Assembly: GCA_008638225.1 (NCBI GenBank)
Contig: VTPP01000012.1
Span: 1-36,028 of the forward strand
Reading direction: 5' to 3'
DNA: 36,028 bases
Source of the DNA: Pelagibacteraceae bacterium
GTDB taxonomy: Bacteria > Pseudomonadota > Alphaproteobacteria > Pelagibacterales > Pelagibacteraceae
Of this stretch, positions 20,964 through 36,028 are shown one piece after another. Positions within the stretch are counted from its first letter, which is position 1. Every line of letters begins with the position of its first letter. Below the pieces are notes generated by a model, which saw nothing but the letters and a program-made list of their open reading frames with translations, was not told the DNA's origin and ran no database searches. The position numbers and the translations under genes were made by a program.

Positions 20964-22694
20964 ATGAACCTTTCTTTTTGCAAAAGCCTTCCGGAACTTT
21001 TTTTTGAAAATTGCAAACAAAAGCACAATAAACAACATTTAATTTACATTAATAAAGAAACTAGCAAACAAGAATTCTATAATTGGCAGCAAACAAAAGA
21101 AGAGGTTTTGTCTTTATCAAATATATTATTTGATCAAAAAGTACTAAAAGGAGATAGGGTGATGCTAGTTTCTGAAAATAGGCCTGAATGGTTAATTTCA
21201 GATATCTCTATAATGACTAATGGCGCAATTACAGTGCCAAATTACACCACGTACTCAGCCAAGGATTTTGAATATGTCATTCAAGATTGTAAACCTGTCG
21301 GTTTAATTGTTTCAAATGAAAATATATTGAACAAAATTATCTCTGCTGCAAATAATCTTGGATATGCTTTTAATTTTATTATTCATTTAGATAAATTAGA
21401 TAAAGATTATTCAGGTCACAATTTAATTTCATATGCTAAAGATATTAAGTTAAATTCAAAAACTACTAGTTTTTTTTTTAATAAAGAAATTTTGCAAAGA
21501 AAAGATCCTGCTTGTATTATTTATACGTCCGGCACTGAAGGAAATCCAAAAGGAGTTATCCTAAGCCACGGAGGAATTTTAAGTAATTGTGATAGTGCCT
21601 TGGATCTGTTGAAAGACATAAAAATAAAAAATCACACCTTTCTGACATGGCTACCGTTATCTCATTCTTACGAACATACTGCTCAGTTTGTTCAAATAGC
21701 TATTCAAGCAAAAGTATTTTACGCAGAAAGTTTAGAAAAACTATTATCAAATTTAAAAACAGCAAGCCCAACTATTATGACAGCGGTTCCAAGATTTTAT
21801 AATAATTTTTATAATAAAATAAAAATAAATATTTCTAAAACACAAGGATTGAAAAAAATTTTATTTGATAAAACAATCGAGATTGGAGAAAAAATAATTT
21901 TACAAAAAAAAATATCTTTTTTTGAAAAAATATTAAATTTTTTTTTAGATATTTTAGTACGTAGAAAAATAAACCAAAATTTAGGTGGAAATATAAAAGC
22001 CTTTATATCCGGTGGTGGGCCACTGGATCCCAAAGTTGGTCTTTATTTAAATGCACTAGGTTTAAAAACGATGCAAGGTTATGGACTTACAGAAGCATCA
22101 CCGATAGTCAGCTGTAATCCTGCAAATTTTATAAAAGTAGATACTGTTGGAAAAATACTAAAAAATACAAAAGTAAAAATAGCTGAAGATGGTGAGATAC
22201 TAGTAAGTGGTGAAAACATAATGCTTGGATATTGGAACAATGAACAAGCAACAAATAAAGTACTAATTAATAACTGGTTATATACAGGAGATATAGGAGA
22301 AATAGATTCTGATGGTTATTTAAAAATTACAGATAGAAAAAAAGATATTATTGTCACATCTGGTGGAGATAACATTTCTCCAGCTAAAATTGAAAATTTA
22401 ATTTGTGCAAATCCTGAGATCGATCAAGCGTTTGTATATGGCGACAATAAAAATTATTTAGTGGCATTAATTTTTATTAACAAAGAATTTAAACTATCAA
22501 AGCAAGAAGTGCAGATAATTATAGATAAAGTTAACAACAATCTCACAGCAATTGAAAAAATTAAAAATTTTCAACTATTAGATGAAGGTTTTACTTTGGA
22601 AAATAATATGCTCACACCAACTATGAAGATGAAACGCTATGTGATTAAGAAAAACTTTTCTAAAATTCTAAATAGTTTTTATCATTCATCATAA
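20964..22694 (+). CDS. Long-chain acyl-CoA synthetase, AMP-forming
   Basis: The 576-residue protein is an ANL-superfamily adenylate-forming enzyme of the long-chain fatty acid-CoA ligase type. The AMP-binding motif ACIIYTSGTEGNPKGVILSH lies near residues 187-206, with LTWLPLSHSYEHTAQ after it. GYGLTEASPIVSCNP is the second core motif, and YTGDIGEIDSDGYLKITDRK is the hinge region; the catalytic lysine region is near TPTMKMKR at the C-terminus. The ATG follows the tRNA-Leu CCA by seven bases with no room for a Shine-Dalgarno sequence, so it may be translated from a very short leader after tRNA processing. Confidence 0.92.
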   Translation: MNLSFCKSLPELFFENCKQKHNKQHLIYINKETSKQEFYNWQQTKEEVLSLSNILFDQKVLKGDRVMLVSENRPEWLISDISIMTNGAITVPNYTTYSAKDFEYVIQDCKPVGLIVSNENILNKIISAANNLGYAFNFIIHLDKLDKDYSGHNLISYAKDIKLNSKTTSFFFNKEILQRKDPACIIYTSGTEGNPKGVILSHGGILSNCDSALDLLKDIKIKNHTFLTWLPLSHSYEHTAQFVQIAIQAKVFYAESLEKLLSNLKTASPTIMTAVPRFYNNFYNKIKINISKTQGLKKILFDKTIEIGEKIILQKKISFFEKILNFFLDILVRRKINQNLGGNIKAFISGGGPLDPKVGLYLNALGLKTMQGYGLTEASPIVSCNPANFIKVDTVGKILKNTKVKIAEDGEILVSGENIMLGYWNNEQATNKVLINNWLYTGDIGEIDSDGYLKITDRKKDIIVTSGGDNISPAKIENLICANPEIDQAFVYGDNKNYLVALIFINKEFKLSKQEVQIIIDKVNNNLTAIEKIKNFQLLDEGFTLENNMLTPTMKMKRYVIKKNFSKILNSFYHSS

Positions 22695-22767
22695 AGTAAA
22701 AAACATTCATTAAATCGTTTAAAAACAACATTATTTTTAATTATTTAATTATTTAATTGTTAGTTTC

Positions 22768-22795
22768 AAAATTGAATCAATTTTAATTTTTTTTT
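22768..22795 (+). terminator. Weak Rho-independent terminator after acyl-CoA synthetase
   Basis: AAAATT (22768-22773), a five-base loop and AATTTT (22779-22784) form an all-AT stem, followed after two A bases by nine T residues. A low-GC stem is weak by general standards but the long T-tract makes termination plausible in such an AT-rich genome. It separates the synthetase gene from the promoter of the small basic protein. Confidence 0.45.
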
Positions 22796-22820
22796 GGAAA
22801 ATTTTTCAATTATTTAAAGT

Positions 22821-22850
22821 TTGACTTTAATGTGTATTTCTTTTTATATG
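22821..22850 (+). promoter_or_regulatory. Promoter for the small lysine-rich protein
   Basis: TTGACT (22821-22826) and TATATG (22845-22850) are 18 bases apart. The -35 has five matches to consensus and the -10 has four. Transcription would start around 22857, giving a leader of about 60 bases that holds a perfect hairpin and an AGGAG ribosome-binding site. Confidence 0.6.
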
Positions 22851-22863
22851 AATTAATAACGAA

Positions 22864-22887
22864 TCACTTAGAAAATATTCTAAGTGA
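22864..22887 (+). promoter_or_regulatory. Perfect 10-bp hairpin in the leader of the lysine-rich protein
   Basis: TCACTTAGAA and TTCTAAGTGA are exact inverted repeats around a four-base AATA loop. The hairpin sits near the expected transcript start and 16 bases before the AGGAG at 22904-22908. There is no T-run after it, so it is not a terminator. It could protect the 5' end of the mRNA, act as a protein-binding site, or serve autoregulation; none of these is shown. Confidence 0.7.
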
Positions 22888-22915
22888 AACTCCAAAAACA
22901 AAAAGGAGAGCAAAG

Positions 22916-23020
22916 ATGGCTAAAAAAAGAAAAAAAGCAGCAAAGAAAAAAGCACCAGCTAAAAAAAGAAAAGCTGCTAAGAAAACTACTAAGAAAAAAG
23001 CTAAGAAAAGAAAAAGATAG
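22916..23020 (+). CDS. 34-residue lysine-rich, histone H1-tail-like protein
   Basis: The frame starting at ATG 22916 is preceded by a good AGGAG at 22904-22908. It encodes 34 residues: 18 lysines, four arginines, eight alanines, two threonines, one proline and the methionine, with AAKKK/KKRK-type repeats like histone H1 or Hc1 tails. A longer in-frame start at 22832 lies upstream of the expected transcript start and is rejected. The gene has its own promoter, leader hairpin and strong terminator, so it looks monocistronic and well expressed. Nucleic-acid binding is inferred from composition alone; no folded domain is present. Confidence 0.75.
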   Translation: MAKKRKKAAKKKAPAKKRKAAKKTTKKKAKKRKR

Positions 23021-23040
23021 TTTTAGATCTAGTTTTCAAA

Positions 23041-23073
23041 AAAAACGCTCTCTAATTAGAGGGCGTTTTTTTT
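23041..23073 (+). terminator. Strong Rho-independent terminator (probably bidirectional)
   Basis: AAAAACGCTCTC (23041-23052), loop TAATTA and GAGGGCGTTTTT (23059-23070) form a 12-bp stem with one G-T pair, followed by further T residues. A-tracts on the other side make it work for the minus strand too, where it overlaps the carD stop codon at 23072-23074. This is by far the most GC-rich hairpin in the window. Confidence 0.9.
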
Positions 23074-23878
23074 ATTCCACTAAATTTTTTTCCGGAGTTT
23101 TGCCAAGAGCCTTATTTAATTTTTCCTTAGCTTCTTCTTCAGTTGATTCTAGTACAACAGTAACTTCCCCAAGAAGCCTCTCAAATGCCTTTTCAAATAA
23201 TTGTCTTTCACTATAAGACTGATCAACTGGCATATCCGTATTCTTATTTAAATCTCTTACTACTTCTGCAATTTGATAGATTTCTCCAGAATTAATTTTT
23301 TGTTCATATTCCTGTGCTCTTCTACTCCACATGGTTCTTTTTATTTTTGCTTTCCCTTTTAAAATTGAGATAGCTTTATTAATTTGGTTAATGCTGGATA
23401 GAGGCCTTAGATGAGATTGCTGATTAGTAGGAATAGTTAAAACTAATTTATCTTTTGTAATTTCAATTTTGTAAAAATTTATGTCTATTCCAGCTATTAC
23501 ATCTTTCTCCACAGCAACAATTTGGCCAATTCCGTGCTTTGGATATATTACGTAATCTTTAATTTTATAAATTCGTTTTTCATTATCTTGTTTTTTAATT
23601 TTTACAATTTCAACAAGAGGGTCTTGAGAAGAGTGTGAGGTATAAACTCTTCCACTTTTAATAATCGGTTTTTGAACTATAGGAGAATCTTTTTTCTCAA
23701 CAGCTTCTTTTACTTCTTTAATTGCTTTAAGTTTTTTTTCTTTAACAGGCTTAGCCGCTTTAACTTTTTTTTCTTTAGTAGGTTTAGTGACTTTAATTTT
23801 TTTTTCTTTAACAGGTTTTTGAGATTTTTTTTTTGGCGCCACAGCTTTTAAAAGAGATTGTTTAATTTTTTTTAACAT
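23072..23878 (-). CDS. carD: CarD-family transcription regulator with lysine-rich repeat tail
   Basis: The 268-residue protein has a CarD/CdnL-type RNA-polymerase-interacting domain from about residue 103 on: IKDYVIYPKHGIGQIVAVEK, then LTIPTNQQSHLRPLSS and WSRRAQEYEQKINSGEIYQI with a helical C-terminus. Such proteins bind the RNAP beta subunit and stabilise open promoters, for example at rRNA genes. The first 60 residues are an unusual lysine-rich tail with three 11-residue repeats (KPVKEKKIKVT-like, residues 21-53). CarD proteins of other alphaproteobacteria are usually near 165-200 residues, so the tail is extra. It follows fdxA by 58 bases. Confidence 0.9.
   Translation of the reverse strand: MLKKIKQSLLKAVAPKKKSQKPVKEKKIKVTKPTKEKKVKAAKPVKEKKLKAIKEVKEAVEKKDSPIVQKPIIKSGRVYTSHSSQDPLVEIVKIKKQDNEKRIYKIKDYVIYPKHGIGQIVAVEKDVIAGIDINFYKIEITKDKLVLTIPTNQQSHLRPLSSINQINKAISILKGKAKIKRTMWSRRAQEYEQKINSGEIYQIAEVVRDLNKNTDMPVDQSYSERQLFEKAFERLLGEVTVVLESTEEEAKEKLNKALGKTPEKNLVE
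23720..23818 (-). repeat. Three 33-bp tandem repeats in carD coding sequence
   Basis: These bases encode residues 21-53 of the CarD-like protein, three consecutive 11-residue units of the form KPxKEKKxKxx, with a partial fourth (KEVKEAVEK) after them. At DNA level the units share TTTAACAGG-type and TTTTTTTCTTTA-type blocks on the plus strand with scattered differences. The array looks like an in-frame expansion that lengthened a basic tail. Confidence 0.8.
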
Positions 23879-23936
23879 TGATTTTTTGTAAGGCGATGGA
23901 AATAGCTTATATTAAGAACCTTTTCAAGAAATATAA

Positions 23937-24281
23937 TTATTTTTTGTCCCCAGAACCTGGGTTTTCATTATAAAATTTATCTAATTTGTTTTCCATGTCT
24001 TTGAATTTTTCCCAATCAGGTAATGGGTCTTTCTTTTTAGTGATAACTGGCCAAATCTCAGATAATTTTTTATTGAGCAAAACATGTTTTTCCGCACCGT
24101 TGTTTGTATCAGGTTCTATTGCATTGATAGGACATTCCGGTTCGCACACACCGCAATCAATACATTCGTCTGGATTAATGACCAACATGTTCTCACCTTC
24201 ATAAAAACAATCAACCGGACATACTTCCACGCAGTCTGTTAATTTACATTTGATACACTTATCGTTTACAACGTACGTCAT
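23937..24281 (-). CDS. fdxA: Seven-iron ferredoxin FdxA
   Basis: The 114-residue protein is a [3Fe-4S][4Fe-4S] ferredoxin of the FdxA type. Two cysteine-rich motifs are clear: [18 protein letters not shown] at residues 9-26, where the usual CxxCxxCxxxCP pattern is modified for a 3Fe cluster, and [12 protein letters not shown] at residues 40-51. The C-terminal 50 residues are the family's helical extension. It is a soluble electron carrier whose partner is unknown. It overlaps terB-like by four bases and precedes carD, matching the conserved fdxA-carD pair of alphaproteobacteria. Confidence 0.95.
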
Positions 24282-24697
24282 ATACTTAATTTTTTCTTTA
24301 TTTTAATTTTAATTGCACCTAAATCCGCACTTTCTATGTAAGTAAGGCCAGCAACCCTTCGTATTAAATTGTCTTCAAATTCATGAATAGTCCTGTCTGA
24401 ATATATAATTTCAATTAACATTTCAATTATTTTGAGTCTTTCTGTATATTCAAGTTTTTTAACTTCTTGTGTGAGGTGCAGTATTTGATTTTTATTTTCC
24501 TCTAGTATTTCACATTCACTAATCAATTCTTTTATATATTCATCATCTGCAATAAAAAATTTCTTTACGCACTTAATAATAGTTTCTTTTTCTATTTCGC
24601 TATAAATTCCATCAAGTTTTGCCGCATGTATAAACAGAGTAGTAATAGATAATTCTAAAGCTTTGAATTTGCGATTTTCTTTTAAAAACCAGCTCAT
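24278..24697 (-). CDS. TerB-like helical protein
   Basis: The 139-residue protein matches the TerB/DjlA-like helical domain. [20 protein letters not shown] near residues 16-35 and the later [20 protein letters not shown] show the paired acidic D-G/D-x-x-x-x-E metal-binding pattern of this fold. Despite the family name, most members are not known to act on tellurite. It lies two bases after the helicase and overlaps fdxA by four bases. In many alphaproteobacteria this position is held by an S4-domain RNA-binding protein gene; no S4 domain is recognisable here. Confidence 0.8.
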
Positions 24698-24699
24698 AA

Positions 24700-27174
24700 T
24701 TAAGAAAGTATTTTAATCTTTTTAAGCTCACTAAATGGATTGTTGGATACTTTCTTTTTACTGATTTTTGAATTAAATTTTTTAGGGGAATATTTAAAAA
24801 ATATTTTACCTTCTTTTTCTATATAATTATAATTCATTTTTTTCATTAATTCTTTAAAATCTTCTTTTGTTGAACCAAGTAAATTTAATATATCACTTGT
24901 TAATTCAAATAATCCATTTTTACTTAAGGAAATAATTTTTAAGAATAATCGTTCCAATATATCTATTCTTATTATGTAATTATCAAAAGTTTCAAATCCG
25001 CAAATCAAAAGATATTCTTTATCTTGGTTTGTAAAATTCTTTACAAAATTTAATCCAAATGCTGGAGACTTATTGTCGGATAAATTGTGAAAACAATTCC
25101 AAAGAATTGTTTTAAAAATAACAGCGGCTGGCTTTACCATTCTTGGTTGATAAATATGATATCTTCCAATTTTAATACCCAACTTTCTTAAAATAGATCT
25201 GTCTTCTTTATTTATTTGCTTAACAATTTCATTAACATTTTCTCTTTTTAGAACGCCATTGTTTTCAAATAGTTGATAACATAACCCACGAATAAATCTA
25301 TTTTCGTACTGAGAATTTTCAATTTTTATCAAATCTTGTAATAAGTTTTGTTTTTCTAATTTTAGCCAATTTGATAAACTTAAAGATATTCTCTGCTGAT
25401 CTTGCAGTTCCACGCTTTCATCTACTAAAATTTTAACATCAGGATTTAGATAATTTTTTCCCGGATAAATTTTACCTATAATTTTTTCTTTCCAGTAAAT
25501 ATTTTTATCTTTTTTTAAACTGAAATGCTCAGGTGAAGCTATTATTTCCTCAATTCTTTTCTTTAATTCTAAAGCTGCCCCATTTCTTGCTGCTTTCTTA
25601 ATAGAGCGAATGTCAGTTTGCAAAGCGTTGGATGTATAATCAAGAATAATTTTTAATCCATTGATCTTTCCAACAAGCTGTCCATCCATAATAATTTCAT
25701 TACTTTCTGAAATTTTGGCCTCATGTTGAATGTCTTGTTTTAGACCTCTCGACAGAATACTAATTCTTTTATCTACAAAACTTTTTGACAATTCTTCGTG
25801 AAGACGATCAGATAATTTGTCTTCTATGTCTTTAGTTTTGGCAATCCAGTAATCATTATTTTCAACCCAATTTCTTTTGTTTGCCACATAAGACCATGTT
25901 CGTACGTGAGATATTCTATTTGCAATAGCATCAATATTTCCAATCAAATTATCTAGGTTTGATACCTGCTTTTTCATCCAGTCATTAGTTATTTTTTCTT
26001 TATCAGAGGTCAAAAAATTAAAAACGCTAGTAACTATTTCCATATGCTCATTATAAGAGCTTTTGGTAAAATCAGGTATCTGGCAGCATTCCCAAAGTTT
26101 TGAGATATGATTTTCTTCATTGTTTATTTTTAATTGAGATTTTTCTGTTGTTAGGAATTTAAACATATTCTCATCGATTAATTCTCTGTTTCTTAATAGA
26201 TTTGGGATAGAAGGTGGCTTATTTAAGCTCTCTATAAATTTTTTGATACTCGAAAAATCTAAACTAGAATTTCTCCAGTAAATATTAACAACACTATCAA
26301 ATTTGTGATTTTCTAATTTTTCTATTTGTTCGCTTGTCAGCGCTTCACAATCTCCAGTGATTCCAAAGCTTCCATCATTTTTGTATCTACCAGCGCGTCC
26401 ACTAATCTGACCAATTTCTGTATTTCTTAATCCTCTAATTTTTTTTCCATCATATTTTCTTAAATTATTAAAACTAACATGGTCTATATTCATGTTAATA
26501 CCCATACCAATAGCGTCCGTTGCTACTAAAAAATCGACATCACCTGATTGATACAAATCTACTTGTGCATTGCGCGTTTTAGGACTCAAGGATCCCATCA
26601 CTATGGCTGCGCCACCTCTTTGTCTTCTAATAAATTCTGCTAACGCATAAACTTCATCTACTGAAAAAGCAACAATTGCACTGCGAGGCTGTATTCTAGA
26701 TATTTTCTTGTAACCAGTATAAATTAATTTTGACAATCTATCTCTATATACAAACTCACTAGATGGAACCAAATTAGAGATAATATTTTTCATTGTATCG
26801 GCACCTAAAAACATTGTTAATTTATCTCCGCGGTAATTTAATAATCGGTCCGTAAAAATATGCCCTCGTTCTGGATCTGCGCACATTTGAATTTCATCAA
26901 TTGCCACAAATTCAAAATTTAAATCAAGAGGCATTGATTCTACAGTGCACAAATAATAATTTGCAGTTGGTGGTATTATTTTTTCCTCACCAGTTATTAA
27001 TGCTACTCGATTTGACCCTAATTTTTTTACACAATTATCGTAAACTTCTCTTGCGAGAAGACGAAGAGGAAAACCAATCACACCAGTCTCGAATTGTAAC
27101 ATTCTCTCCACAGCAAAATGTGTCTTGCCAGTATTGGTTGGACCTAAAACAGAAATTATTTGAGGATTCATCAT
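24700..27174 (-). CDS. SUV3-type DEAD/DExH RNA helicase
   Basis: The 824-residue protein is a superfamily 2 helicase of the SUV3 (mitochondrial degradosome) type. Motif I is GPTNTGKTHF at residues 11-20 and motif II is DEIQM at 93-97, both hallmarks of SUV3. FLVATDAIGMGINMNIDHVS and EIGQISGRAGRYKNDGSFG are motifs V and VI. The C-terminal 450 residues resemble the poorly characterised helicase tail of alphaproteobacterial members. RNA unwinding for decay or ribosome processing is likely by family. Two ATG codons are tandem at 27174 and 27171; the first is used. It heads a run with the TerB-like gene, fdxA and carD. Confidence 0.92.
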   Translation of the reverse strand: MMNPQIISVLGPTNTGKTHFAVERMLQFETGVIGFPLRLLAREVYDNCVKKLGSNRVALITGEEKIIPPTANYYLCTVESMPLDLNFEFVAIDEIQMCADPERGHIFTDRLLNYRGDKLTMFLGADTMKNIISNLVPSSEFVYRDRLSKLIYTGYKKISRIQPRSAIVAFSVDEVYALAEFIRRQRGGAAIVMGSLSPKTRNAQVDLYQSGDVDFLVATDAIGMGINMNIDHVSFNNLRKYDGKKIRGLRNTEIGQISGRAGRYKNDGSFGITGDCEALTSEQIEKLENHKFDSVVNIYWRNSSLDFSSIKKFIESLNKPPSIPNLLRNRELIDENMFKFLTTEKSQLKINNEENHISKLWECCQIPDFTKSSYNEHMEIVTSVFNFLTSDKEKITNDWMKKQVSNLDNLIGNIDAIANRISHVRTWSYVANKRNWVENNDYWIAKTKDIEDKLSDRLHEELSKSFVDKRISILSRGLKQDIQHEAKISESNEIIMDGQLVGKINGLKIILDYTSNALQTDIRSIKKAARNGAALELKKRIEEIIASPEHFSLKKDKNIYWKEKIIGKIYPGKNYLNPDVKILVDESVELQDQQRISLSLSNWLKLEKQNLLQDLIKIENSQYENRFIRGLCYQLFENNGVLKRENVNEIVKQINKEDRSILRKLGIKIGRYHIYQPRMVKPAAVIFKTILWNCFHNLSDNKSPAFGLNFVKNFTNQDKEYLLICGFETFDNYIIRIDILERLFLKIISLSKNGLFELTSDILNLLGSTKEDFKELMKKMNYNYIEKEGKIFFKYSPKKFNSKISKKKVSNNPFSELKKIKILS

Positions 27175-27290
27175 TTATGGTCTAAAATTTCTTGACCCAC
27201 TATATTTAGATTTGGTCGAAGAACAAAGTAGGCATAAAGGGTGACCGAATCAATTAAAAAAATGTTCTCGTTTTGAGTGAATTTTGAAAA

Positions 27291-27575
27291 CTACGATCTA
27301 ATTTCAAAATTATTAGATGTTATTTCCTCTTCAAAATCGTCAACAAGAATATTAGTAACGCATGAATTTTTGGGTCCCAAAAAACACTCTGATAAAATAT
27401 TTGTAAATATTTCATAGCCCACTTTAAAAAAAAAAGCTTCTACATCACCATTTTTTTTATTAGCAACCCATCCAACAACACCTTTATCATTACATATTTT
27501 TTGTAACCAACTCCTATAGCCAACGCCTTGGACGGTGCCAGTAATTATTATTTTTTTAGAAATCAAATTGGTCAC
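27291..27575 (-). CDS. acyP: Acylphosphatase, GTG start
   Basis: The 94-residue product has the acylphosphatase fold. The phosphate-binding loop and catalytic arginine are in GTVQGVGYRSW (Arg21), and the catalytic asparagine is Asn39 in GWVANKKNGDVEAFF. The enzyme hydrolyses carboxyl-phosphate bonds such as acetyl or acyl phosphate. The start is GTG at 27575, overlapping the preceding NlpC/P60 stop as GTGA. The next 116 bases to the helicase start hold no gene. Confidence 0.92.
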   Translation of the reverse strand: MTNLISKKIIITGTVQGVGYRSWLQKICNDKGVVGWVANKKNGDVEAFFFKVGYEIFTNILSECFLGPKNSCVTNILVDDFEEEITSNNFEIRS

Positions 27576-28321
27576 AAAGGTCTTTTAATGGCCAAAACTT
27601 TGAGATTATTTTTTTTTAATAAAATATTAATAGTTTTCTTAATAGACATGATAATAACTCTTTTCTTAGGACCATAAGCATGAACTAAATTTTTTTGATT
27701 AATAGCTATTGCAACATGGCCTTTCCAAAATAGCAAATCTCCTCTACGAATATTGTGCAAAGGCACATTTTTTTTAAAAAAAACCATTTGATCTTTACTG
27801 TCTCTAGGACATTTTTTATTTATGCTTTTAAATAATTCTTGAACTAATCCAGAACAATCAATGCCTTTAATTGTATTTCCACCCCACAAGTATTTTGTTT
27901 TAAGAAAATAAGAAATATTATCTAAAAAATTATTAGTCTTATTTTTTGTTTTATTTATAGAATTATTTTTGATCCAAAATTTATTAATTTTAATAAAATT
28001 ATTATCTTTTTTTAGGATAGTAACTTTTGAGTTAAATAAAAGTTTTTTATTTGTTTTTTTAAAACTTATGTTACCTTGATAAAGAGAAGTTTCTTTTTCT
28101 TTTATTCTATAACTATTTTTAGTATTTATTTTTTTAAAATTTTTTTTTAAGACAAATCCAGGGTAATTATCAAAAATACAATAGCCCTTATAAAATGTAC
28201 CAATTGATTTTTGTACAGAGAACTGCTCTCCGTATAAAATTTGAGAAACAACCTCAGCTTTTTTGCTTGGTTCTTTAAAAATGTTACTAACTTGATTAAT
28301 ACAAGTTAAAATTCTATGCAT
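27572..28321 (-). CDS. NlpC/P60 peptidase with SH3-like N-terminus
   Basis: The 249-residue protein ends in an NlpC/P60 cysteine-peptidase domain. The catalytic residues are Cys156 in YLWGGNTIKGIDCSGLVQ, His202 in GDLLFWKGHVAIA and His214 in LVHAYGPKK. The first 130 residues resemble bacterial SH3-type wall-binding repeats (ISxxxxKEPSKKAEVVSQILYGE). Family members cut peptidoglycan stem peptides. No clear signal peptide is present, so export is uncertain. The upstream ATG at 28345 would overlap the preceding gene; ATG at 28321, one base past that gene's stop, is preferred. Confidence 0.88.
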   Translation of the reverse strand: MHRILTCINQVSNIFKEPSKKAEVVSQILYGEQFSVQKSIGTFYKGYCIFDNYPGFVLKKNFKKINTKNSYRIKEKETSLYQGNISFKKTNKKLLFNSKVTILKKDNNFIKINKFWIKNNSINKTKNKTNNFLDNISYFLKTKYLWGGNTIKGIDCSGLVQELFKSINKKCPRDSKDQMVFFKKNVPLHNIRRGDLLFWKGHVAIAINQKNLVHAYGPKKRVIIMSIKKTINILLKKNNLKVLAIKRPL

Positions 28322-28322
28322 T

Positions 28323-28742
28323 TTATTTAAACAAACTTTGTGCAAATTCTGTAGCCCAATTTATACTTTGCATAATAATGTCTTTAACAATTTCAGATGC
28401 TTCAAAAAATCCGGAGAGAAATGGGTAGTGTAATAATATTAAGTCTTCGTTAAAATGAATTCCTGCAAACAATGCTGAAATAAATAATAAAGAAGTAAAA
28501 ACAATTGAATAAAAATTGCTACTTTTATCTTTTGATGTGCTTTTCTTAACTTCTTTTAAATTTTTATGAGGTATTGGTATTTCTAAATTTAATGTAGAAT
28601 TAGAAATTTCCTCATTATTGTTTTCGTTTTTATGAAACCATTGTTCATGGCAAAATCCACACTGAACAATCCTGCCTTCGCTTGAAATGGCATCGTCTGG
28701 AATACTAAATGCATATTTTTTACACTTACAGTTGATGATCAT
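28323..28742 (-). CDS. Zinc-ribbon (MJ0042-like) single-pass membrane protein
   Basis: The frame encodes a zinc-ribbon of the MJ0042/zinc_ribbon_5 type followed by a membrane helix. From the ATG at 28742 (139 residues) the cysteines are C5, C7, C28 and C31: MIINCKCKKYAFSIPDDAIS, then GRIVQCGFCHEQW. The first pair is CxC, not the usual CPxC, so zinc binding may be altered. A hydrophobic helix lies near residues 83-103. The 28751 opening codon is TTG. The partner gene behind it is an NlpC/P60 peptidase. Function is unknown; similar proteins are widespread in alphaproteobacteria. Confidence 0.8.
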   Translation of the reverse strand: MIINCKCKKYAFSIPDDAISSEGRIVQCGFCHEQWFHKNENNNEEISNSTLNLEIPIPHKNLKEVKKSTSKDKSSNFYSIVFTSLLFISALFAGIHFNEDLILLHYPFLSGFFEASEIVKDIIMQSINWATEFAQSLFK

Positions 28743-28790
28743 CAAAGGCAAATTAAGTTTAAAAAAAAAAAAATCAATTTTATTTTTAGC

Positions 28791-28819
28791 TTGCTAATTT
28801 AAGTTTATTAGTATCTAAA
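28791..28819 (+). promoter_or_regulatory. Possible promoter for the TPP-controlled operon
   Basis: TTGCTA (28791-28796) and TCTAAA (28814-28819) are spaced by 17 bases, each matching consensus at four of six positions. Transcription would start near 28826, right at the first bases of the TPP aptamer P1 stem. The assignment is tentative. Confidence 0.4.
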
Positions 28820-28824
28820 TAGTT

Positions 28825-28897
28825 TTGTTCGGGGGTGCGTAAACGCTGAGATTATACCCTTAGAACCTGATGTTTAATTACAACGTAGGGAGAACAA
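28825..28897 (+). promoter_or_regulatory. TPP (THI-box) riboswitch
   Basis: The conserved TPP aptamer blocks appear in order: GGGGGTGC (28831-28838), GCTGAGA (28845-28851), ATACCC, GAACCTGAT (28863-28871) and GTAGGGAGAAC (28885-28895). Stem P1 pairs TTGTTC (28825-28830) with GAACAA (28892-28897), whose last A is the first base of the porin ATG. P3 is minimal (GCG/CGC). The aptamer's own AGGGAG is a Shine-Dalgarno sequence about five bases from the start codon, so thiamin pyrophosphate binding should hide it and repress translation. No terminator follows. Confidence 0.95.
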
Positions 28898-29568
28898 TGA
28901 GCAAAAAAAAAGTCATAATTATATCTATTTTAATTAATTTTTTTCTTTTAGAAAAATCAATTTGCGAACCTATTCAGCTAGCAAGAGATGTGGAGGTTAG
29001 TTTTTCGGCTGAATATATGAGTCGTTATGTTTATAGAGGAATTGACCAAAACAAAGATCGTAGTACAGCCTCTGTCTCAGCTAATCTTTCACTGCCTGCA
29101 GGTATTTATATGGGGACGTGGATAGCAGAGGCTAATTATGGAGGATCCTCACAAGAAGTAGATTTATATTTTGGAATTAACCAAAGTTATAAAGATTTTA
29201 ATTTTGATATTTATTATCTAGAGGCAAGATATCCAGGAAAAAAGTTAGTAAATGTTGGAGAGTATAATTTTAAATTAGTTTATCAGGCAAATGAATCTCC
29301 ATTTCGTATCGGATATTATTTTGCATTGGAAGATACAAATGAAACAGTGGGAAGCGATTATAAAGAATATAGCATAGGATATGATTTTAAAAATTTTAAT
29401 TTATTAGCTACCTACGGTGATTGGGATGTCATTAATAAAACAAAAACTATCACTGCATCAAAAAGCTTTCAGCACTTTGATATAAAAATTTCTCATATTA
29501 TTACAGATAATAGTTCTAATGTTGCGAATGAAAGATTTAATACAGTAATAATCAGTAAATCTTTTTAA
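28897..29568 (+). CDS. Putative outer-membrane porin (TorF/TIGR02001-like), TPP-controlled
   Basis: The 223-residue protein has a signal peptide (residues about 1-24, ending at SICEP) and then a beta-rich region with alternating hydrophobic residues. VEVSFSAEYMSRYVYRGIDQ and GIYMGTWIAEANYGG match the N-terminal region of the TorF/TIGR02001 putative porin family, and the last residue is phenylalanine, as in BAM-assembled barrels. ATG 28897 is chosen because 28870 lies inside the aptamer. AGGGAG five bases upstream is the ribosome-binding site. As the first gene after a TPP riboswitch, it probably admits a thiamin precursor such as HMP; that role is inference. Confidence 0.8.
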   Translation: MSKKKVIIISILINFFLLEKSICEPIQLARDVEVSFSAEYMSRYVYRGIDQNKDRSTASVSANLSLPAGIYMGTWIAEANYGGSSQEVDLYFGINQSYKDFNFDIYYLEARYPGKKLVNVGEYNFKLVYQANESPFRIGYYFALEDTNETVGSDYKEYSIGYDFKNFNLLATYGDWDVINKTKTITASKSFQHFDIKISHIITDNSSNVANERFNTVIISKSF

Positions 29569-29576
29569 TAAATATT

Positions 29577-31055
29577 ATGATCTTTGAATTGAATACATTC
29601 ATATTGTTACTTGTGTGTATTTTGTCTGCATTATTTGGGCTTTTTTTTTCAAAAAATAATTTGTCTGCATCTTCTTATTTAAATGCAGGACGCTCCATTA
29701 AATCTAAATCATTAACAGCATCTATAGTTGCTTCTTGCTTTGGAGTTTGGATTTTAATAGGGCCGGCTGAAGCAGCTACCTGGGGTGGAATGGGAGCTAT
29801 ATTGGGTTATGCTTTAGGGCAAGCATGTCCATATTTAGCCATGATAACTTTTGGAGAAAGGCTACGATCTATTATGCCGAATGGAAATAGCTTAACCCAA
29901 TTTGTTTTTGCTCGTTATGGAAAAAAAATGCTAAAAATTATTCTATTACTTTCTCTTTTTTATATGTTTGTTTATTTATGTGCGGAAGTAACAGCGATTG
30001 CCAAAGTAACAAATCTGATCACAGGTCTACCATTATGGAAAACTTCTTTATTAATCTTAGTTACTACTTTAATTTACACTCTAAAAGGTGGTTTAAGAAT
30101 ATCTATATTAACAGATAAAATTCAATTTATAATTATCTTAATTTTTTTAATTTTTATTTTTTATTTTTTATTTTTTTCAGGAACAATAAATATTTCTTTT
30201 GACTTAATACAATCAAAAGCAAGTAACTTAATAAGTTTAAATTATTTTTATGGGTACACAGCTGGTTTAACCTTTTTTATCGCTGTATTTGCCACAAACT
30301 TATTCGACCAAGGAGTTTGGCAAAGAATTTTTGCAGCAAACTCAACTTATGATTTGAAAGCAGGTTTTAGAAATTCCTTTTTAATTATTTTACCGGTCAT
30401 ATTGATCTTAGGGTTTTGCGGAATCGTAGCTATTTCCTTGGTACGAGTGGATGATCCAAGCACAATTATCTTTTCATTATTACTCGGACAAGGTGGAAAA
30501 TATATATCGAGCATAGTCTTGGTATTAGCATTGACATTAGTTATTAGTAGTATGGATACATTAATTAATGCTATTTCAAGCCTTCTGGTCATAGATGGTA
30601 GCAAATTTATTAAATATAATTTAAAAATTACCCACTTAAATTTTTCTAGAATTATTTTAGTTTTAGTTTCAATTATAGTTTTTTACATTGCATCAAAAGG
30701 ATTGAGCGTTCTTTACATGTTTCTTCTAGCTGACCTTCTTTGCTGTGCTGCAGCGATACCAGTTTTTTATGGAATGTTTAAAGATGATACTAATGAACAT
30801 GTTTCTATTATGGCAATTTTTTCTGGTTTGCTAGCTGGTCTAATGCTTTTTCCAGATATGAGTTTTCAGAAAAGTATTTTAGTGGGCCTTTTGCTTGATG
30901 TGGAATTATTTCCAGTTTGGATTTCTAGTGCATTATTATTTTGGTCTTTTGTATTTGCAACCTTCATTCCTTTAGCAGTCATTATCCTTGGAAGAAATAA
31001 TAACAATAAATTTGATTTTAGAAAAATTAAAGCATTAATTATTGAAATAAAGTAG
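29577..31055 (+). CDS. thiV: Sodium:solute symporter, ThiV-like thiamin-precursor transporter
   Basis: The 492-residue integral membrane protein belongs to the sodium:solute symporter (SSS) family, with about a dozen hydrophobic helices. FGVWILIGPAEAATWGGMGA near residues 55-74, LYTLKGGLR-like IYTLKGGLRISILTDKIQF, and LFDQGVWQRIFAANS near residues 240-255 are typical. In 'Ca. Pelagibacter ubique' an SSS protein behind a TPP riboswitch was named ThiV and proposed to import the pyrimidine precursor HMP; context and family here match. It begins eight bases after the porin stop, so the riboswitch should control it too. Substrate is inferred. Confidence 0.82.
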   Translation: MIFELNTFILLLVCILSALFGLFFSKNNLSASSYLNAGRSIKSKSLTASIVASCFGVWILIGPAEAATWGGMGAILGYALGQACPYLAMITFGERLRSIMPNGNSLTQFVFARYGKKMLKIILLLSLFYMFVYLCAEVTAIAKVTNLITGLPLWKTSLLILVTTLIYTLKGGLRISILTDKIQFIIILIFLIFIFYFLFFSGTINISFDLIQSKASNLISLNYFYGYTAGLTFFIAVFATNLFDQGVWQRIFAANSTYDLKAGFRNSFLIILPVILILGFCGIVAISLVRVDDPSTIIFSLLLGQGGKYISSIVLVLALTLVISSMDTLINAISSLLVIDGSKFIKYNLKITHLNFSRIILVLVSIIVFYIASKGLSVLYMFLLADLLCCAAAIPVFYGMFKDDTNEHVSIMAIFSGLLAGLMLFPDMSFQKSILVGLLLDVELFPVWISSALLFWSFVFATFIPLAVIILGRNNNNKFDFRKIKALIIEIK

Positions 31056-31070
31056 ATTAGTTCTAATCTA
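31053..31070 (+). promoter_or_regulatory. Intercistronic hairpin at thiV stop / permease start
   Basis: TAGATTA (31053-31059) and TAATCTA (31064-31070) form a perfect 7-bp stem around a GTTC loop. It includes the thiV stop codon TAG and ends five bases before the permease ATG at 31076, leaving no Shine-Dalgarno sequence. No T-run follows, so it is not a conventional terminator. It may uncouple or weaken translation of the third gene. Confidence 0.55.
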
Positions 31071-31075
31071 GCATT

Positions 31076-31828
31076 ATGGAATTTGTAGAATTAAATTATC
31101 TTTTTTTTATAACTTTGTTTATTTTTTTTATAGGTGGCTTAGTAAAAGGTACCATAGGTGTAGGGTTGCCAGCAGTGATATTAACGCTCTTGTCATTTCT
31201 TTACGATATTAAAGATTCAATTTCTTTTATTTTAATTCCAATAATATTAACTAATTTATACCAGTTATTAGATGGTAAACATTTACGGTCTATTTATAAC
31301 CAAACTAAATTTTTTTTAATTTCATCTGTAATATTTATTATACCAGGATTTTTTATCTTAAGAGCTGTAAGTTCAAAAATAATTTTATTAATCATAGCAG
31401 GATTACTTATTACTAATTCATCTTTAGTTTTATTAAAAAAAATAATTACCTTTAAAAATTATAATTCGTTTAAAGTACAATCTGTTATTGGAGCGATAAA
31501 TGGAATTACAGCTGGCACGACTAGTATCTACGTTATGCCATTAGTATTTTTAATCCAGTCTCTACAATTTAATAAAGAAAAATTAATTCAATTTATGGGT
31601 TTAACTTTTTTTTTATACTCTTCTTTTCATTTTATTCTTTTTTATAGTTACTCTATGATTGATAATCGTGGTTTGTTCTTTTCCTTAATCGCATGCGCAC
31701 CAATTTTTTTAGGTGTACTGACAGGAAAATACTTAAGAAAAATTTTGAGTGAAAAAATTTTTAAAATTCTTTTTAATTATATGCTTTTAATAAGTGGAAT
31801 AATAATTATAGTAAAAAATATTATTTAG
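31076..31828 (+). CDS. TauE/SafE-family permease
   Basis: The 250-residue protein has seven or eight hydrophobic segments and the TauE/SafE (DUF81) pattern. FIGGLVKGTIGVGLPAVILTLL near the N-terminus is the first repeat motif, and GAINGITAGTTSIYVMPLVF the second, as expected of this two-repeat fold. Members export or import sulfite, sulfoacetate or other small organosulfur or carboxylic anions. It lies 20 bases after thiV and may be transcribed with it. Whether it moves a thiazole, pyrimidine or sulfur compound is not visible. It is convergent with the EF-hand gene, which begins at its stop. Confidence 0.85.
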   Translation: MEFVELNYLFFITLFIFFIGGLVKGTIGVGLPAVILTLLSFLYDIKDSISFILIPIILTNLYQLLDGKHLRSIYNQTKFFLISSVIFIIPGFFILRAVSSKIILLIIAGLLITNSSLVLLKKIITFKNYNSFKVQSVIGAINGITAGTTSIYVMPLVFLIQSLQFNKEKLIQFMGLTFFLYSSFHFILFYSYSMIDNRGLFFSLIACAPIFLGVLTGKYLRKILSEKIFKILFNYMLLISGIIIIVKNII

Positions 31829-32203
31829 TTACTTTTTAGAATTATTTTTTTTCAAATAATCTTTTTGTTCTTGAAGTGTTACGGAGCCATCTTTATTTGT
31901 ATCCATGGTTATCAAAATTTTTTCTCGTTCTTCTTTAGAAACTTTACCATCTTTGTTAGTATCTGCTAATTTTCCCAACTCCTGATCTATTTTTCGAGCT
32001 TCGTCAATTTTGGCTTTATATGCTTTTTGTTCTTCCGGAGTAACTTTGCCATCTTTATTTGTATCGACAGTATCAAATTCCTGTTCTAACCTTTTTATAT
32101 TATTATCTAGATATTCTTTTTTTGTGATAGTCTTTAGTTCTACCGCAAAGCTATTGGTAGAAATTGAAATTATGCTAATTAGAACAAGAATAAGTTTTTT
32201 CAT
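31829..32203 (-). CDS. Secreted EF-hand calcium-binding protein
   Basis: The 124-residue protein has a signal peptide (residues 1-20, ending SFA) and three EF-hand loops of the form DTNKDGxV-x3-E at residues 47-58, 81-92 and 101-112. All have aspartate at positions 1 and 5 of the loop and glutamate at 12, so calcium binding is likely. Spacing is unequal (34 then 20 residues), so loops two and three are close together. It is probably periplasmic. No enzymatic domain is present and its role is unknown; small EF-hand proteins of this kind occur in many marine alphaproteobacteria. Confidence 0.9.
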   Translation of the reverse strand: MKKLILVLISIISISTNSFAVELKTITKKEYLDNNIKRLEQEFDTVDTNKDGKVTPEEQKAYKAKIDEARKIDQELGKLADTNKDGKVSKEEREKILITMDTNKDGSVTLQEQKDYLKKNNSKK

Positions 32204-32239
32204 AAGAGCCCATTAGCACTTTATTTGCACATTGTAAAA

Positions 32240-33709
32240 TTAACCTCTTTTTTTTGAAGGCATATCTTTAATTAAATAAATCAAAAATAAAACCGGCAAT
32301 CCTAAAACGGCTGTAAATATAAAAAAGAATGGATATCCGATTGCATCAACCATGGAACCAGCGTAGCCAGCAATTAATTTTGGAACAAATAGCATTATAG
32401 AACTAAAGAGCGCGTATTGTGTTGCTGTAAATTTCACGGAAGTGAGAGAAGAAAGATAAACCACAAAAGAAGCACCAGCAAATCCACTTGCAACGTTATC
32501 CGCAGTAATTACTGCTATTAAAAATATAATACTAATATCTGCAATGGCTAACCAAGCAAATAAAACATTACTCAGAGCTGCGATAATAGCACCAACAAGT
32601 AAACTTTGGATAACGCCTTTGTGCATGGAATAAAGTCCTCCGAGAAAACCACCCAGTATGGTAGCGAACAATCCAAAAAATTTTGAATAGGTTGCAATTT
32701 CTGTAATCTGATAACCTTTTTCCAAATAAAATACATTGGCCATGACGCCCATCACAATGTCGGCAATTCTATATAAGCCAATTAGCATTAATATAAATAA
32801 AGCAGCTTTTTTGTATCTCTGGCAAAATTCACTAATAGGTTCAATGTAGGCTAATCTAGCTTTATCCATGGAAATGAAATTAATTTTAGTAAAAAAAATC
32901 ATAACAAATATTGCAGCCGTTAAAGAAATAAATACTTTTAAAATATTTTCTAATGCACTTAATAATAAAGAATTATCAATGATTATTTTAGGTAAATAGC
33001 TGTAGAAAAGAAAAAAAGTAATAATAGACAATATCAAAACAAGCACAAAATTAATTTGAGAATGAGTTATTTTTTTCTTTATAATGATAGGTTCTTTAGA
33101 TGTAAGAGTTGCAAATATACCAACTAGCATAAGGCAGCCCATAATCTGGTATACATTTTTCCAAGTTTCAACATTGTAGCTTTCAACCCCAAAATACGCG
33201 GCCAACCACAAACTCCCAGCACCAGAGACAATCATCGCTATTCTGTATCCAGCAAGATACATCGATGATAATGCACCTTGTTTTTTGATCGTTGTGGATT
33301 CTATTCTAAAAGCATCAATAACAATGTCCTGAGTTGCGCTAGCAAATGCAATTAAAACTATTCCTATTGCTGTATAAAATAAATTTTTACTTGGATCTGT
33401 GAATGAGGTTATAAAAATAGATATAATGATAAAAATTTGAGATAATAAAAGCCAACTTTTTCGATGACCAATTCTAGAAAGAAAAGGTAATTTACAATGG
33501 TCAACTATGGGAGACCATAAAAATTTGAACGAATAAGCAAAACCAGCCCAGCTAAATAAAGTAATAGTGCTTCTTTCCACACCAGCTTTTACTAACCAGA
33601 CAGATAGAGTGGAAAAAATAAGAAGTAACGGTAAACCAGCCGAAAAACCAAACAAAGCCATACCCAATGACTTTTTATTTACAAGTGAGCTTATAACAGA
33701 AAAGTTCAT
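32240..33709 (-). CDS. ampG: AmpG-like major facilitator permease
   Basis: The 489-residue membrane protein is a major facilitator of the AmpG type. GFSAGLPLLLIFSTLSVWLV near residues 22-41, YSFKFLWSPIVDH, and SATQDIVIDAFRIES are AmpG-family landmarks. AmpG imports anhydro-muropeptides for peptidoglycan recycling; some marine homologues may carry other substrates. About 12-14 hydrophobic segments are present. It ends 37 bases before the EF-hand start and follows the cytochrome gene. Function by family is likely, not proven. Confidence 0.85.
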   Translation of the reverse strand: MNFSVISSLVNKKSLGMALFGFSAGLPLLLIFSTLSVWLVKAGVERSTITLFSWAGFAYSFKFLWSPIVDHCKLPFLSRIGHRKSWLLLSQIFIIISIFITSFTDPSKNLFYTAIGIVLIAFASATQDIVIDAFRIESTTIKKQGALSSMYLAGYRIAMIVSGAGSLWLAAYFGVESYNVETWKNVYQIMGCLMLVGIFATLTSKEPIIIKKKITHSQINFVLVLILSIITFFLFYSYLPKIIIDNSLLLSALENILKVFISLTAAIFVMIFFTKINFISMDKARLAYIEPISEFCQRYKKAALFILMLIGLYRIADIVMGVMANVFYLEKGYQITEIATYSKFFGLFATILGGFLGGLYSMHKGVIQSLLVGAIIAALSNVLFAWLAIADISIIFLIAVITADNVASGFAGASFVVYLSSLTSVKFTATQYALFSSIMLFVPKLIAGYAGSMVDAIGYPFFFIFTAVLGLPVLFLIYLIKDMPSKKRG

Positions 33710-33749
33710 TAACTAATTTGAACTATACAATAAATTAATTATTTAGATA

Positions 33750-34295
33750 TTACTTTAAGGGAGCTGGAGAATCACTTTTGCTATTTAGAAAAGCGATAAC
33801 GTTTGCTCTATCGCTTTCTTTGTTTAATCCTGCAAAAGCCATTTTGCTTCCCTTGATGTACTGTGTAGGCTTATATAAAAATTGATTTAGCTCTTCAAAT
33901 GTCCAGTTTTTTCCATGAGCCTGAAGAGCTGTTGAATATTTAAAGCCTTCATGAGCAGCAGATTTATTATTTACAATATTCCAGAGTCCAGGACCAATTT
34001 TATTGGCTCCACCTTTTTCTACAACATGACAAGCTGCACACTTTTTAAAAACATTTGCACCCTCATCAATACTTGCAGATGCTAGTAACGGAGTAATGGG
34101 ATTAAGTTGTGCCTCTTCTTTTTTCGGAGTTTCTGAATTGGCCTCTGCTTTCACCTGCACGCCCGCAATTTTGTATGCAGATTGTTTTGGTTTTTCTACA
34201 TGAAAAATAATATCGGAAATTTCTTTAACTCCAATTACTAATAAAATAGTAATCAGAATTGCGGCAGCGATTTTATTAAATTCAAAACTGTCCAT
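33750..34295 (-). CDS. cycM: Membrane-anchored c-type cytochrome (CycM/c552-like)
   Basis: The 181-residue protein has an uncleaved-looking N-terminal membrane helix (residues about 9-29), a proline- and glutamate-rich linker, and a class I cytochrome c domain. The haem motif CAACH is at residues 86-90, and the methionine ligand is Met152 in GSKMAFAGL. It resembles CycM/c552, which passes electrons from the bc1 complex to terminal oxidase. Position next to kdsB and pheA is the conserved alphaproteobacterial cycM-kdsB-pheA neighbourhood, here divergent. Confidence 0.92.
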   Translation of the reverse strand: MDSFEFNKIAAAILITILLVIGVKEISDIIFHVEKPKQSAYKIAGVQVKAEANSETPKKEEAQLNPITPLLASASIDEGANVFKKCAACHVVEKGGANKIGPGLWNIVNNKSAAHEGFKYSTALQAHGKNWTFEELNQFLYKPTQYIKGSKMAFAGLNKESDRANVIAFLNSKSDSPAPLK

Positions 34296-34385
34296 AATTG
34301 TTAGATTAAATCATATAGTATTTTGAGCAAGTTTTAGAGTATAAAATAAAGTTGTAGATGTCGCAGTATTTAAATTTTTAATTAA

Positions 34386-35111
34386 ATGAAAACAATAATT
34401 ATTATCCCCAGTCATTTACATGCAAAAAGATTACCGAATAAACCGTTATTATTAATCAAAAATGAACCTATGATCGTTCATGTTTGGAAGCAGGCAAAAA
34501 AAAGCAATATAGAAGAAGTTATCGTTGCAACATCTGATCAAGAAATAGCTGACGTTATTTCCAAACAAGGGGGAAAAAGTATTATTACAAACAATAATCA
34601 TACAAATGGGTCGGACAGAATTTTTGAGGCTGTAGAAAATTTAAATTTAAAACCAGATGTAATTATTAATGTACAGGGCGATATGCCATTGATTAATCCC
34701 GATGCTATTAATTACTTGTTTAATTTTATGAAAACAGAATCTGCAGGCATGGCGACACTTGCTAGCTATCTTGAAAAACAAGATGAAGCCAATCCCAATG
34801 TGGTTAAAGTTGAAACTAAAAATGAAATAAGCACAGGTAATTTTTCTTTAGCAAAAGATTTTTTTAGAAAAAAAGATGAAAGAACTAATCATATTTATCA
34901 TCATGTTGGTATTTATGCTTACCAATATCCCATCTTAAAAAAATATGTTGGTTTGCACAAAACAAAAAATGAGCTAGAAAGAAGTTTAGAGCAAATGAGA
35001 GCTCTGGATAACAATATTAAAATTCATGTAGGTTTTATAAAAGATTATCCACTAGGTGTTGATACGCAGGAAGATTTAGATAAAATTAGATTATTGTATA
35101 ATGAAAAATAA
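34386..35111 (+). CDS. kdsB: 3-deoxy-manno-octulosonate cytidylyltransferase
   Basis: The 241-residue enzyme activates Kdo with CTP for lipid A core synthesis. The nucleotide-binding start IIIPSHLHAKRLPNKPLLLI (residues about 4-23), ATSDQEIADVISKQGGK, NVQGDMPLINPDAI and HHVGIYAYQYPILKKYV are all typical of KdsB. The usual SRL in the first motif is AKRLP here. Its presence fits a Gram-negative outer membrane. The stop overlaps the pheA start by 11 bases, so the genes are probably co-translated. Confidence 0.94.
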   Translation: MKTIIIIPSHLHAKRLPNKPLLLIKNEPMIVHVWKQAKKSNIEEVIVATSDQEIADVISKQGGKSIITNNNHTNGSDRIFEAVENLNLKPDVIINVQGDMPLINPDAINYLFNFMKTESAGMATLASYLEKQDEANPNVVKVETKNEISTGNFSLAKDFFRKKDERTNHIYHHVGIYAYQYPILKKYVGLHKTKNELERSLEQMRALDNNIKIHVGFIKDYPLGVDTQEDLDKIRLLYNEK

Positions 35112-35943
35112 AATAGCATTTCAAGGAGAATTGGGAGCCTACTCTCACTTGGCTTCAACCAAAATGTTTGGAAGTGCAGAAGTTCTTCCTTGTAAAACCT
35201 TTGAAGATGTTTTTCAAATATGCAAAAAAAACAATAATATTATTTCAGTTATACCGATAGAAAATTCTTTAGCAGGACGAGTTGCAGATATCCATTATTT
35301 ACTTCCAAGGTATAAATTAAAAATAATCGGAGAATATTTTCATAATGTTGAGCATTGTTTACTTGCCAATAAAGGAGTTAAATTGAAGGACATTAAGTTT
35401 GTTAGAAGTCATGCGCAAGCAATTGGACAGTGCCAAAAAAATTTAAACAAATATAAATTAACTTCAATCGTTGCAGCAGATACAGCTGGATCAGCAAAAT
35501 ATATTTCTGAAAATTACAGCACCTCTGAAGCAGCAATAGCATCATCTTTAGCAGCTAAAATTTATAATTTAAATATTTTGAAGAAATGTTTTGAAGATAG
35601 GAGAGGAAATACTACTAGATTTCTAATAATGAAAAAAAACCATAAATTTCCTAAACTTATTAAAGGAAAAAAATTTATTACTAGCTGTATATTTATGATT
35701 AAAAGTACCCCAGGAGCTCTTTTTAAGGCACTGGGCGGATTTGCAAAAAACAATGTTAATTTAACAAAGCTCGAGAGTTTTTCGGTTAATAATACGTTTT
35801 TGCAAACAATATTTTATTTAGATATCGAAGGTCATGCAGAAAATAAATTTGTAAAACAATCTATTCAAGAATTAAAAAAATACACTAAAAAATTAGATAT
35901 TTTAGGGATTTATATAGCAGATAAATTCCGCTACAAAAAATAA
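35101..35943 (+). CDS. pheA: Prephenate dehydratase with ACT domain
   Basis: The 280-residue monofunctional enzyme converts prephenate to phenylpyruvate. The catalytic PDT domain (residues about 3-180) shows AFQGELGAYSHLASTKMFG, PIENSLAGRVADIHYLL and the active-site TRF in NTTRFLIMKK. The ACT domain follows at about 192-275 with GALFKALGGFAKNNVNLTKL and ESFSV, equivalent to the GAL and ESRP phenylalanine-binding motifs, the latter altered. Feedback inhibition by phenylalanine is expected but the ESRP change may weaken it. The chorismate mutase domain is absent. It overlaps kdsB by 11 bases. Confidence 0.95.
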   Translation: MKNKIAFQGELGAYSHLASTKMFGSAEVLPCKTFEDVFQICKKNNNIISVIPIENSLAGRVADIHYLLPRYKLKIIGEYFHNVEHCLLANKGVKLKDIKFVRSHAQAIGQCQKNLNKYKLTSIVAADTAGSAKYISENYSTSEAAIASSLAAKIYNLNILKKCFEDRRGNTTRFLIMKKNHKFPKLIKGKKFITSCIFMIKSTPGALFKALGGFAKNNVNLTKLESFSVNNTFLQTIFYLDIEGHAENKFVKQSIQELKKYTKKLDILGIYIADKFRYKK

Positions 35944-35981
35944 TATACGGAATCTTTCCTATCGTTTTTTTTCTATCTTGT

Positions 35982-36028
35982 TATACTATTGCCTTGGGGA
36001 ATTGGTAGCAGGTGGATGTTGCGCTAAT
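35982..36028 (+). other. Promoter-like TATACT and possible start of an RNA gene, cut by the window end
   Basis: After pheA there is a T-run (35965-35972) following a weak GGAA/TTCC hairpin, then TATACT at 35982-35987, a near-consensus -10. The next bases, from about 35991, run GCCTTGGGGAATTGG and GGTGGATGTTGCGCTAAT, unusually GC-rich for this genome, with no open frame seen. This base composition and position suit a structured RNA. The signal recognition particle RNA (ffs) lies between the pheA region and dnaX in other alphaproteobacteria, so it is my best guess, but the diagnostic GGTCAGGTCCGGAAGGAAGC-type core would lie beyond the window. Confidence 0.3.

Follow-up and report, generated by a model that had tools for sequence, protein, structure and literature searches.

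A thiamin pyrophosphate riboswitch ahead of an outer-membrane porin gene and thiV in a Pelagibacterales genome: a candidate two-membrane uptake operon for a thiamin precursor

In aquatic habitats SAR11 bacteria rank with the most abundant of all bacteria, and they rely on vitamin precursors at picomolar concentrations. How do these compounds cross the outer membrane? The papers searched on ThiV, the symporter proposed for the inner-membrane step, do not address the question, and it is raised afresh by a stretch of 36,028 nucleotides (contig VTPP01000012.1, assembly GCA_008638225.1), referred to here as the window, whose genome was placed in Pelagibacterales. Its genus (g1) is taken to be that of the metagenome-assembled genomes (MAGs) CP.15 (G097) and M30B8 (G197), probably SAR11 subclade IIIa.3. 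On the forward strand of the window, a thiamin pyrophosphate (TPP) riboswitch is followed by genes for an outer-membrane porin, for ThiV and for a TauE/SafE-family permease. The best reading of this arrangement, held with modest confidence, is an uptake operon that serves both membranes, is controlled by the TPP riboswitch and brings in a pyrimidine vitamer of thiamin.

The TPP aptamer (RF00059; 28821–28908) was recognized by cmscan with 60.9 bits (E 9.9e-10), above the Rfam gathering score of 54.3, and begins 4 nt upstream of the place at which an earlier sequence-only reading had rightly noted it. The core blocks CTGAGA, ACCC, GAACCTGAT and CGTAGGGA are all intact, and the element is the single TPP riboswitch match in its own streamlined genome (95% complete, 1.02 Mb). 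Minimum-energy folding of the aptamer is no better than that of shuffled sequences, the support coming from the covariance-model match and not from energy; promoter and terminator scans were uninformative, promoter-like sites being fewer than in shuffles. Judged by the ribosome site that it encloses, the riboswitch would bind TPP and regulate the gene downstream. The last 12 positions of the model overlap the beginning of the porin gene. According to the Rfam consensus structure, helix P1 is formed by a 5′ strand, UGUUC (28826–28830), and a 3′ strand, GAACA (28892–28896), which abuts the porin ATG at 28897; the 3′ end of the aptamer contains a Shine–Dalgarno-like AGGGAG (28887–28892), the sole such site before the porin and the likely expression platform. 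The ribosome site inside the aptamer and the start codon flush with P1 suggest that P1 closure controls translation. In the porin-less genomes G157 and G032, and likewise in LD12, the aptamer stands flush with the thiV ATG in the same geometry, so that the start codon controlled by the switch is that of whichever gene comes first. An in-frame start at 28870, within the aptamer, leads gene callers to lengthen the porin by nine residues (28870–28896); the lengthened frame would run through the aptamer, and this start is almost certainly wrong. The thiV gene of G157 receives the same nine-residue extension into its riboswitch, and annotated N-termini may be wrong.

The porin gene (28897–29568, forward strand) encodes 223 amino acids and belongs to the family TIGR02001/PF09694 (TorF-family, Gcw_chp), with scores of 57.3 bits for TIGR02001 (cut-off 47.15) and 45.6 bits for PF09694 (cut-off 24). 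Its N-terminus resembles a signal peptide and its C-terminus reads NTVIISKSF, the final aromatic residue being the Phe already remarked on in the sequence-only reading, whose spacings of 8 nt to the symporter and 20 nt from there to the TauE/SafE gene are also exact. AlphaFold2, given eight homologues, predicts a 12-strand barrel (predicted local distance difference test, pLDDT, 85.2), and the nearest porin folds among the best PDB matches are KdgM (TM-scores 0.60/0.76), VhGalP (0.59/0.62) and NanC (0.53/0.57), that is 0.53–0.60 on the query. These are small 12-strand barrels as well, although sequence identity to the window porin is only ∼8–10% and their substrates are different. KdgM, NanC and VhGalP are small substrate-specific channels whose genes serve uptake of one substrate class; to our knowledge, none is linked to a riboswitch. 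No family other than TIGR02001/PF09694 was matched in profile searches, and a barrel of 223 residues is not that of a TonB-dependent receptor. The TIGR02001 family is annotated merely as ‘putative porin’, and by family assignment and structural model the window protein is a candidate channel.

The symporter gene (29577–31055, forward strand; 492 amino acids) belongs to the sodium:solute symporter family (PF00474, 65.8 bits). With most of the order's ThiVs that lie behind a riboswitch the protein shares 45–70% identity, and with that of LD12 ∼40%; as judged from the family match and from its kinship in sequence and tree with riboswitch-linked SAR11 ThiVs, it is a ThiV, because orthologues across the order sit directly behind TPP riboswitches. 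The start of thiV lies 8 nt past the porin stop and has no Shine–Dalgarno sequence of its own in the window, and the gene is therefore probably coupled translationally to the porin. A mechanism can be proposed. When TPP is scarce, the aptamer would be open and AGGGAG free, and the porin would be translated from the ATG abutting P1, with ThiV following through re-initiation coupled to it. As a small channel of the 12-strand monomer type, the porin would raise the permeability of the outer membrane to 4-amino-5-hydroxymethyl-2-methylpyrimidine (HMP) and/or its aminomethyl counterpart (AmMP), and ThiV would pump the vitamer inward together with sodium; TenA, whose gene is inside the operon in CP.15, would turn AmMP into HMP. 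When TPP is plentiful, P1 would close and silence both porin and thiV.

How far this arrangement is shared was assessed across 197 Pelagibacterales genomes, of which 168 contain a TPP riboswitch and 126 a ThiV (E < 1e-30). Where positions were compared, a riboswitch immediately before thiV is the usual layout, and the porin lies between the two in the window and in CP.15. In CP.15, thiV is followed by tenA and then by tauE, and the porin and ThiV are 59% and 70% identical to those of the window; the recurrence of riboswitch, porin and thiV in an independent MAG means that the order in the window is no accident of assembly. The CP.15 thiV start carries TAGGGAGGAC/ATAGGGAGGACTAGTG, the core of which is a 9/10 match to the aptamer 3′ end. 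Across the loci checked, such a match precedes only 2 of 259 open reading frame (ORF) starts, and the second of these is itself a riboswitch–thiV junction. The match in CP.15 is possibly the scar of a porin insertion at the start codon of the switch. TIGR02001 porins are rare in the order, with just four of the 197 genomes encoding one. A second layout is found in G009, G054 and Fonsibacter ZLKRG47, in which the porin immediately precedes the riboswitch and shares its strand, thiV coming next. Genus g4 is likewise taken to be Fonsibacter/LD12, the Fonsibacter locus L079 having the same gene order as G009. In G009 (L054 5467–7050), tandem diverged porins precede the riboswitch and thiV, behind a gene for an Lrp/AsnC-type regulator. 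A search ahead of the LD12 porins for an additional, weak riboswitch gave none. The sequence-only reading had made its proposal depend on whether the two genes are commonly adjacent in related genomes: they adjoin in all five SAR11 genomes in which both were found (the window genome, CP.15, G009, G054 and ZLKRG47). The order riboswitch, porin, thiV is so far confined to the window and CP.15. The chance that a single randomly placed gene would adjoin the thiV unit is p ∼0.002 per lineage.

The two layouts differ in ThiV subfamily, porin clade and flanking genes. The SAR11 porins form one clade (97/99), within which those of the window and CP.15 (100/100) and those of LD12 (99/99) are separate, and the ThiV tree sets a clade of g1, g2 and G173 (99/99) against one of g3, g4 and g5 (99/98), with a warning from the tree program that long branches meet. 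Given these differences, porin and thiV were probably paired on two occasions, and separate recruitment of a porin to thiV is the simplest account; an ancestral porin–thiV pair followed by rearrangement and replacement of ThiV is a possible alternative.

The closest relative provides a further view of the unit. In G197, window segments 22539–28809 and 30763–36028 abut, at 92% and 89% identity (blastn), and a single deletion corresponding to 28810–30762 has removed the riboswitch, the porin and ∼80% of thiV; the remaining thiV tail is frameshifted and tauE is intact. This joint loss speaks for a common unit, but it is one event and could be a hitchhiking deletion. Several observations weigh against an uptake operon. 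The porin of LD12 is outside the reach of the riboswitch, the riboswitch–porin–thiV order is found in two MAGs only, and thiV of CP.15 has its own AGGGAGG site, so that translational coupling is not general. Furthermore, most SAR11 live on HMP by means of ThiV and manage without such a porin, which is thus not needed for HMP use, and a compound as small as HMP might cross through general porins. The proposal of the sequence-only reading that porin and ThiV act jointly in uptake is therefore kept in a narrower form: one riboswitch lies ahead of both genes and their adjacency is consistent, but its rarity makes the porin an accessory found in a few lineages, not a component of HMP uptake in SAR11 at large, and what is conserved is its linkage to thiV and not its control by the riboswitch, since in LD12 it precedes the switch.

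Which vitamer would such an operon import? The sequence-only reading named HMP against a background of auxotrophy, and the background is borne out: no thiC was found in any of the 11 genomes searched, that of the window included, whose thiamin pathway was probed for thiC and TenA. The absence of thiC is a known feature of SAR11. The cargo itself is less certain, and AmMP is a serious though lesser possibility, in which case a ThiV with Asp at one position, TenA and the porin would salvage a breakdown product of thiamin; this refines the uptake-operon reading and overlaps with it. Among 21 riboswitch-type ThiVs, Y78, E137 and F243 are invariant, and in the motif of transmembrane helix 6 (TM6; F243–R250, 30303–30326) the window protein has D244 after F243 where most ThiVs have His, changing NLF-H-QG to NLF-D-QG. 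Asp at this place is confined to g1, g2 and G173, whose Asp-type proteins form the single clade noted above; His is found in LD12, in each of the nine ThiVs used as outgroups and in 40/40 of those sampled from g3 and g5. The published signature of HMP symporters consists of Tyr, an acidic residue, and Phe followed by His or a polar residue, with Asp named at 139 (PMC11452348). In the window ThiV, Y78, E137 and F243 are candidate counterparts of SiaT 78, 139 and 254, and a polar, charged Asp comes next; a PDB sequence search retrieved only DUR3/SGLT/NIS relatives, leaving the residue numbers untied to SiaT. The place of the Asp/His residue in the pocket is conjectural.

The distribution of TenA points in the same direction. 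High-scoring TenA (≥135 bits) is found only in G000, G097, G197, G157, G173 and G090, the last of which has no ThiV match, and it accompanies Asp-type ThiVs in four of seven cases as against 0/43 for the others (Fisher p 1.5e-4), an association that the test overstates because the genomes are kin. The tenA gene lies directly behind thiV in CP.15 and G173 and elsewhere in the window genome. G173 is a g3 genome with the order riboswitch, thiV, tenA (L059 936–3091), whose Asp-type ThiV is 61% identical to that of the window; its genus is otherwise without tenA in the sample, and the three elements look like a transferred cassette. Genomes of IIIa.3 carry tenA (PMC10030771), and HMP uptake by strain HTCC7211, the ThiV of which is presumably of the His type, is hardly affected by AmMP (PMC11452348), so that living on AmMP would call for a different ThiV. 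Taken together, the Asp-type ThiV may favour AmMP over HMP, the His/Asp difference being a possible mark of specificity. Against this, the Asp type is also present in g2 and in G032, which lack a high-scoring TenA, and TenA can also serve intracellular recycling.

A different view would make the porin a general channel, or one for another nutrient, that landed between riboswitch and thiV, its control being incidental and without a special role for thiamin precursors. Breadth of the family speaks for this: TIGR02001 was found in 60/289 sampled genomes of the class, a C-terminal Phe barrel is in itself uninformative on substrate, and riboswitch and porin are joined in the stated order in only two MAGs. 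As background to the SAR11 pairing, the 30 best TIGR02001 loci of the class were compared with 1.5-kb flanks, and a TPP riboswitch or thiV occurred within that distance at none (0/30). Of ten ThiV homologues outside the order, seven are immediately preceded by a TPP match, which in one case falls slightly below the gathering score, and none of the ten has a porin within 1.5 kb. Two further SAR11 porins lie away from thiV, one in G097 at a contig end and one in G197. The latter is of a second type and stands directly behind an ammonium transporter gene (L050 6189–8662, G197:C12), a pair suggesting that the family associates with different importers. The idea that TIGR02001 is a regular partner of Amt/P-II was dropped, as an ammonium transporter was present at only 2/30 of the class loci. 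What renders the general-channel view rather unlikely is the adjacency to thiV in five of five genomes by way of two apparently separate placements, and the fact that the porins of the window and CP.15 have remained intact at 59% identity on their own long branch. Composition also sets the thiV-linked SAR11 porins apart: they contain 17–21 basic residues and have net charges of -2 to -10, as against 8–10 basic residues and charges of -15 and -17 in the two unlinked ones; most sampled members of the class are also more acidic than the thiV-linked porins. Although a crude measure, the lower acidity hints at a different cargo and fits poorly with a strongly cation-selective pore.

The fullest version of the uptake-operon reading, in which the thiV locus of SAR11 subclade III acquired a passive porin on two or more occasions, once under a TPP riboswitch as a dedicated regulated channel, with an Asp-type ThiV in IIIa retuned to AmMP together with TenA, is unlikely to be right in every part. 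A further reading has the riboswitch acting chiefly for thiV, as it does in other SAR11, with the porin a recent insertion that merely borrows its start codon. This would agree with the direct contact of switch and thiV in porin-less relatives and with the TAGGGAGGAC retained at the CP.15 thiV start, but it is improbable, since two diverged species have kept an ORF of 220 residues, which speaks for a function, and the window thiV, its ribosome site gone, would depend on porin translation.

The location of thiV behind a TPP riboswitch is already known (PMC4260697, PMC11452348, PMC2211319). The window shares with riboswitch–thiV of Candidatus Pelagibacter (SAR11_0811) the riboswitch class, the ThiV family, an aptamer flush with a start codon and the lack of thiC, and differs in having a porin on the start codon of the switch, Asp for His in ThiV TM6 and tauE afterwards. 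Outer-membrane genes under this riboswitch are also on record, among them Omr, a BtuB-like receptor (PMC2211319). The closest parallel is the Bacteroides OMthi-pnuT-tnr3 operon, in which a TPP riboswitch precedes genes for an outer- and an inner-membrane importer, and where deletion of either importer raises the thiamin requirement in a non-synthesising strain (PMC5613172). There, however, OMthi is a TonB-dependent receptor, PnuT has another fold and the cargo is thiamin, whereas the window combines a passive porin-type barrel with a sodium symporter and the cargo is probably a precursor. The novelty claimed by the sequence-only reading does not extend to two-membrane thiamin systems as such; what sets the window apart from them is a passive porin-type barrel alongside ThiV under a TPP riboswitch. 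No TPP-riboswitch porin and no thiamin-linked TIGR02001 protein was found in the literature searched, which covered few subscription journals, and a porin goes unmentioned in the searched papers on SAR11 HMP uptake and subclade IIIa. The window protein is a member of TIGR02001, but its linkage to thiV and to a TPP riboswitch is unlike any locus checked outside SAR11. If the uptake-operon reading holds, outer-membrane permeability would be a regulated step in vitamin-precursor uptake, and the ThiV His/Asp difference offers a one-residue hypothesis for HMP versus AmMP specificity that bears on differences between brackish/freshwater and oceanic SAR11.

The third gene of the window locus encodes a TauE/SafE-family permease (31076–31828, forward strand; PF01925, 72.8 bits, cut-off 32.6) and starts 20 nt after thiV. 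An AT-rich small inverted repeat, TAGATTAG-TT-CTAATCTA, is situated at the thiV stop before tauE (31051–31070), folding no better than shuffles. The gene is present in 6/6 members of the window genus and lies behind thiV in that genus only. The part in the uptake system that the sequence-only reading gave it is weakened by this restriction and by its intactness in G197 after loss of thiV; TauE is best taken as a passenger or an ancillary exporter, and a role in uptake is uncertain.

A last observation concerns the sole TPP riboswitch of G197 (G197:C1:399147–399237, 71.3 bits), which now precedes a short-chain dehydrogenase gene (L127 746–1600). The encoded protein is 53% identical to one from the unrelated genome G557 (L087 3199–4134), which has its own TPP riboswitch and lies next to thiV, divergent from it, and the recurrence points to a candidate TPP-controlled reductase.

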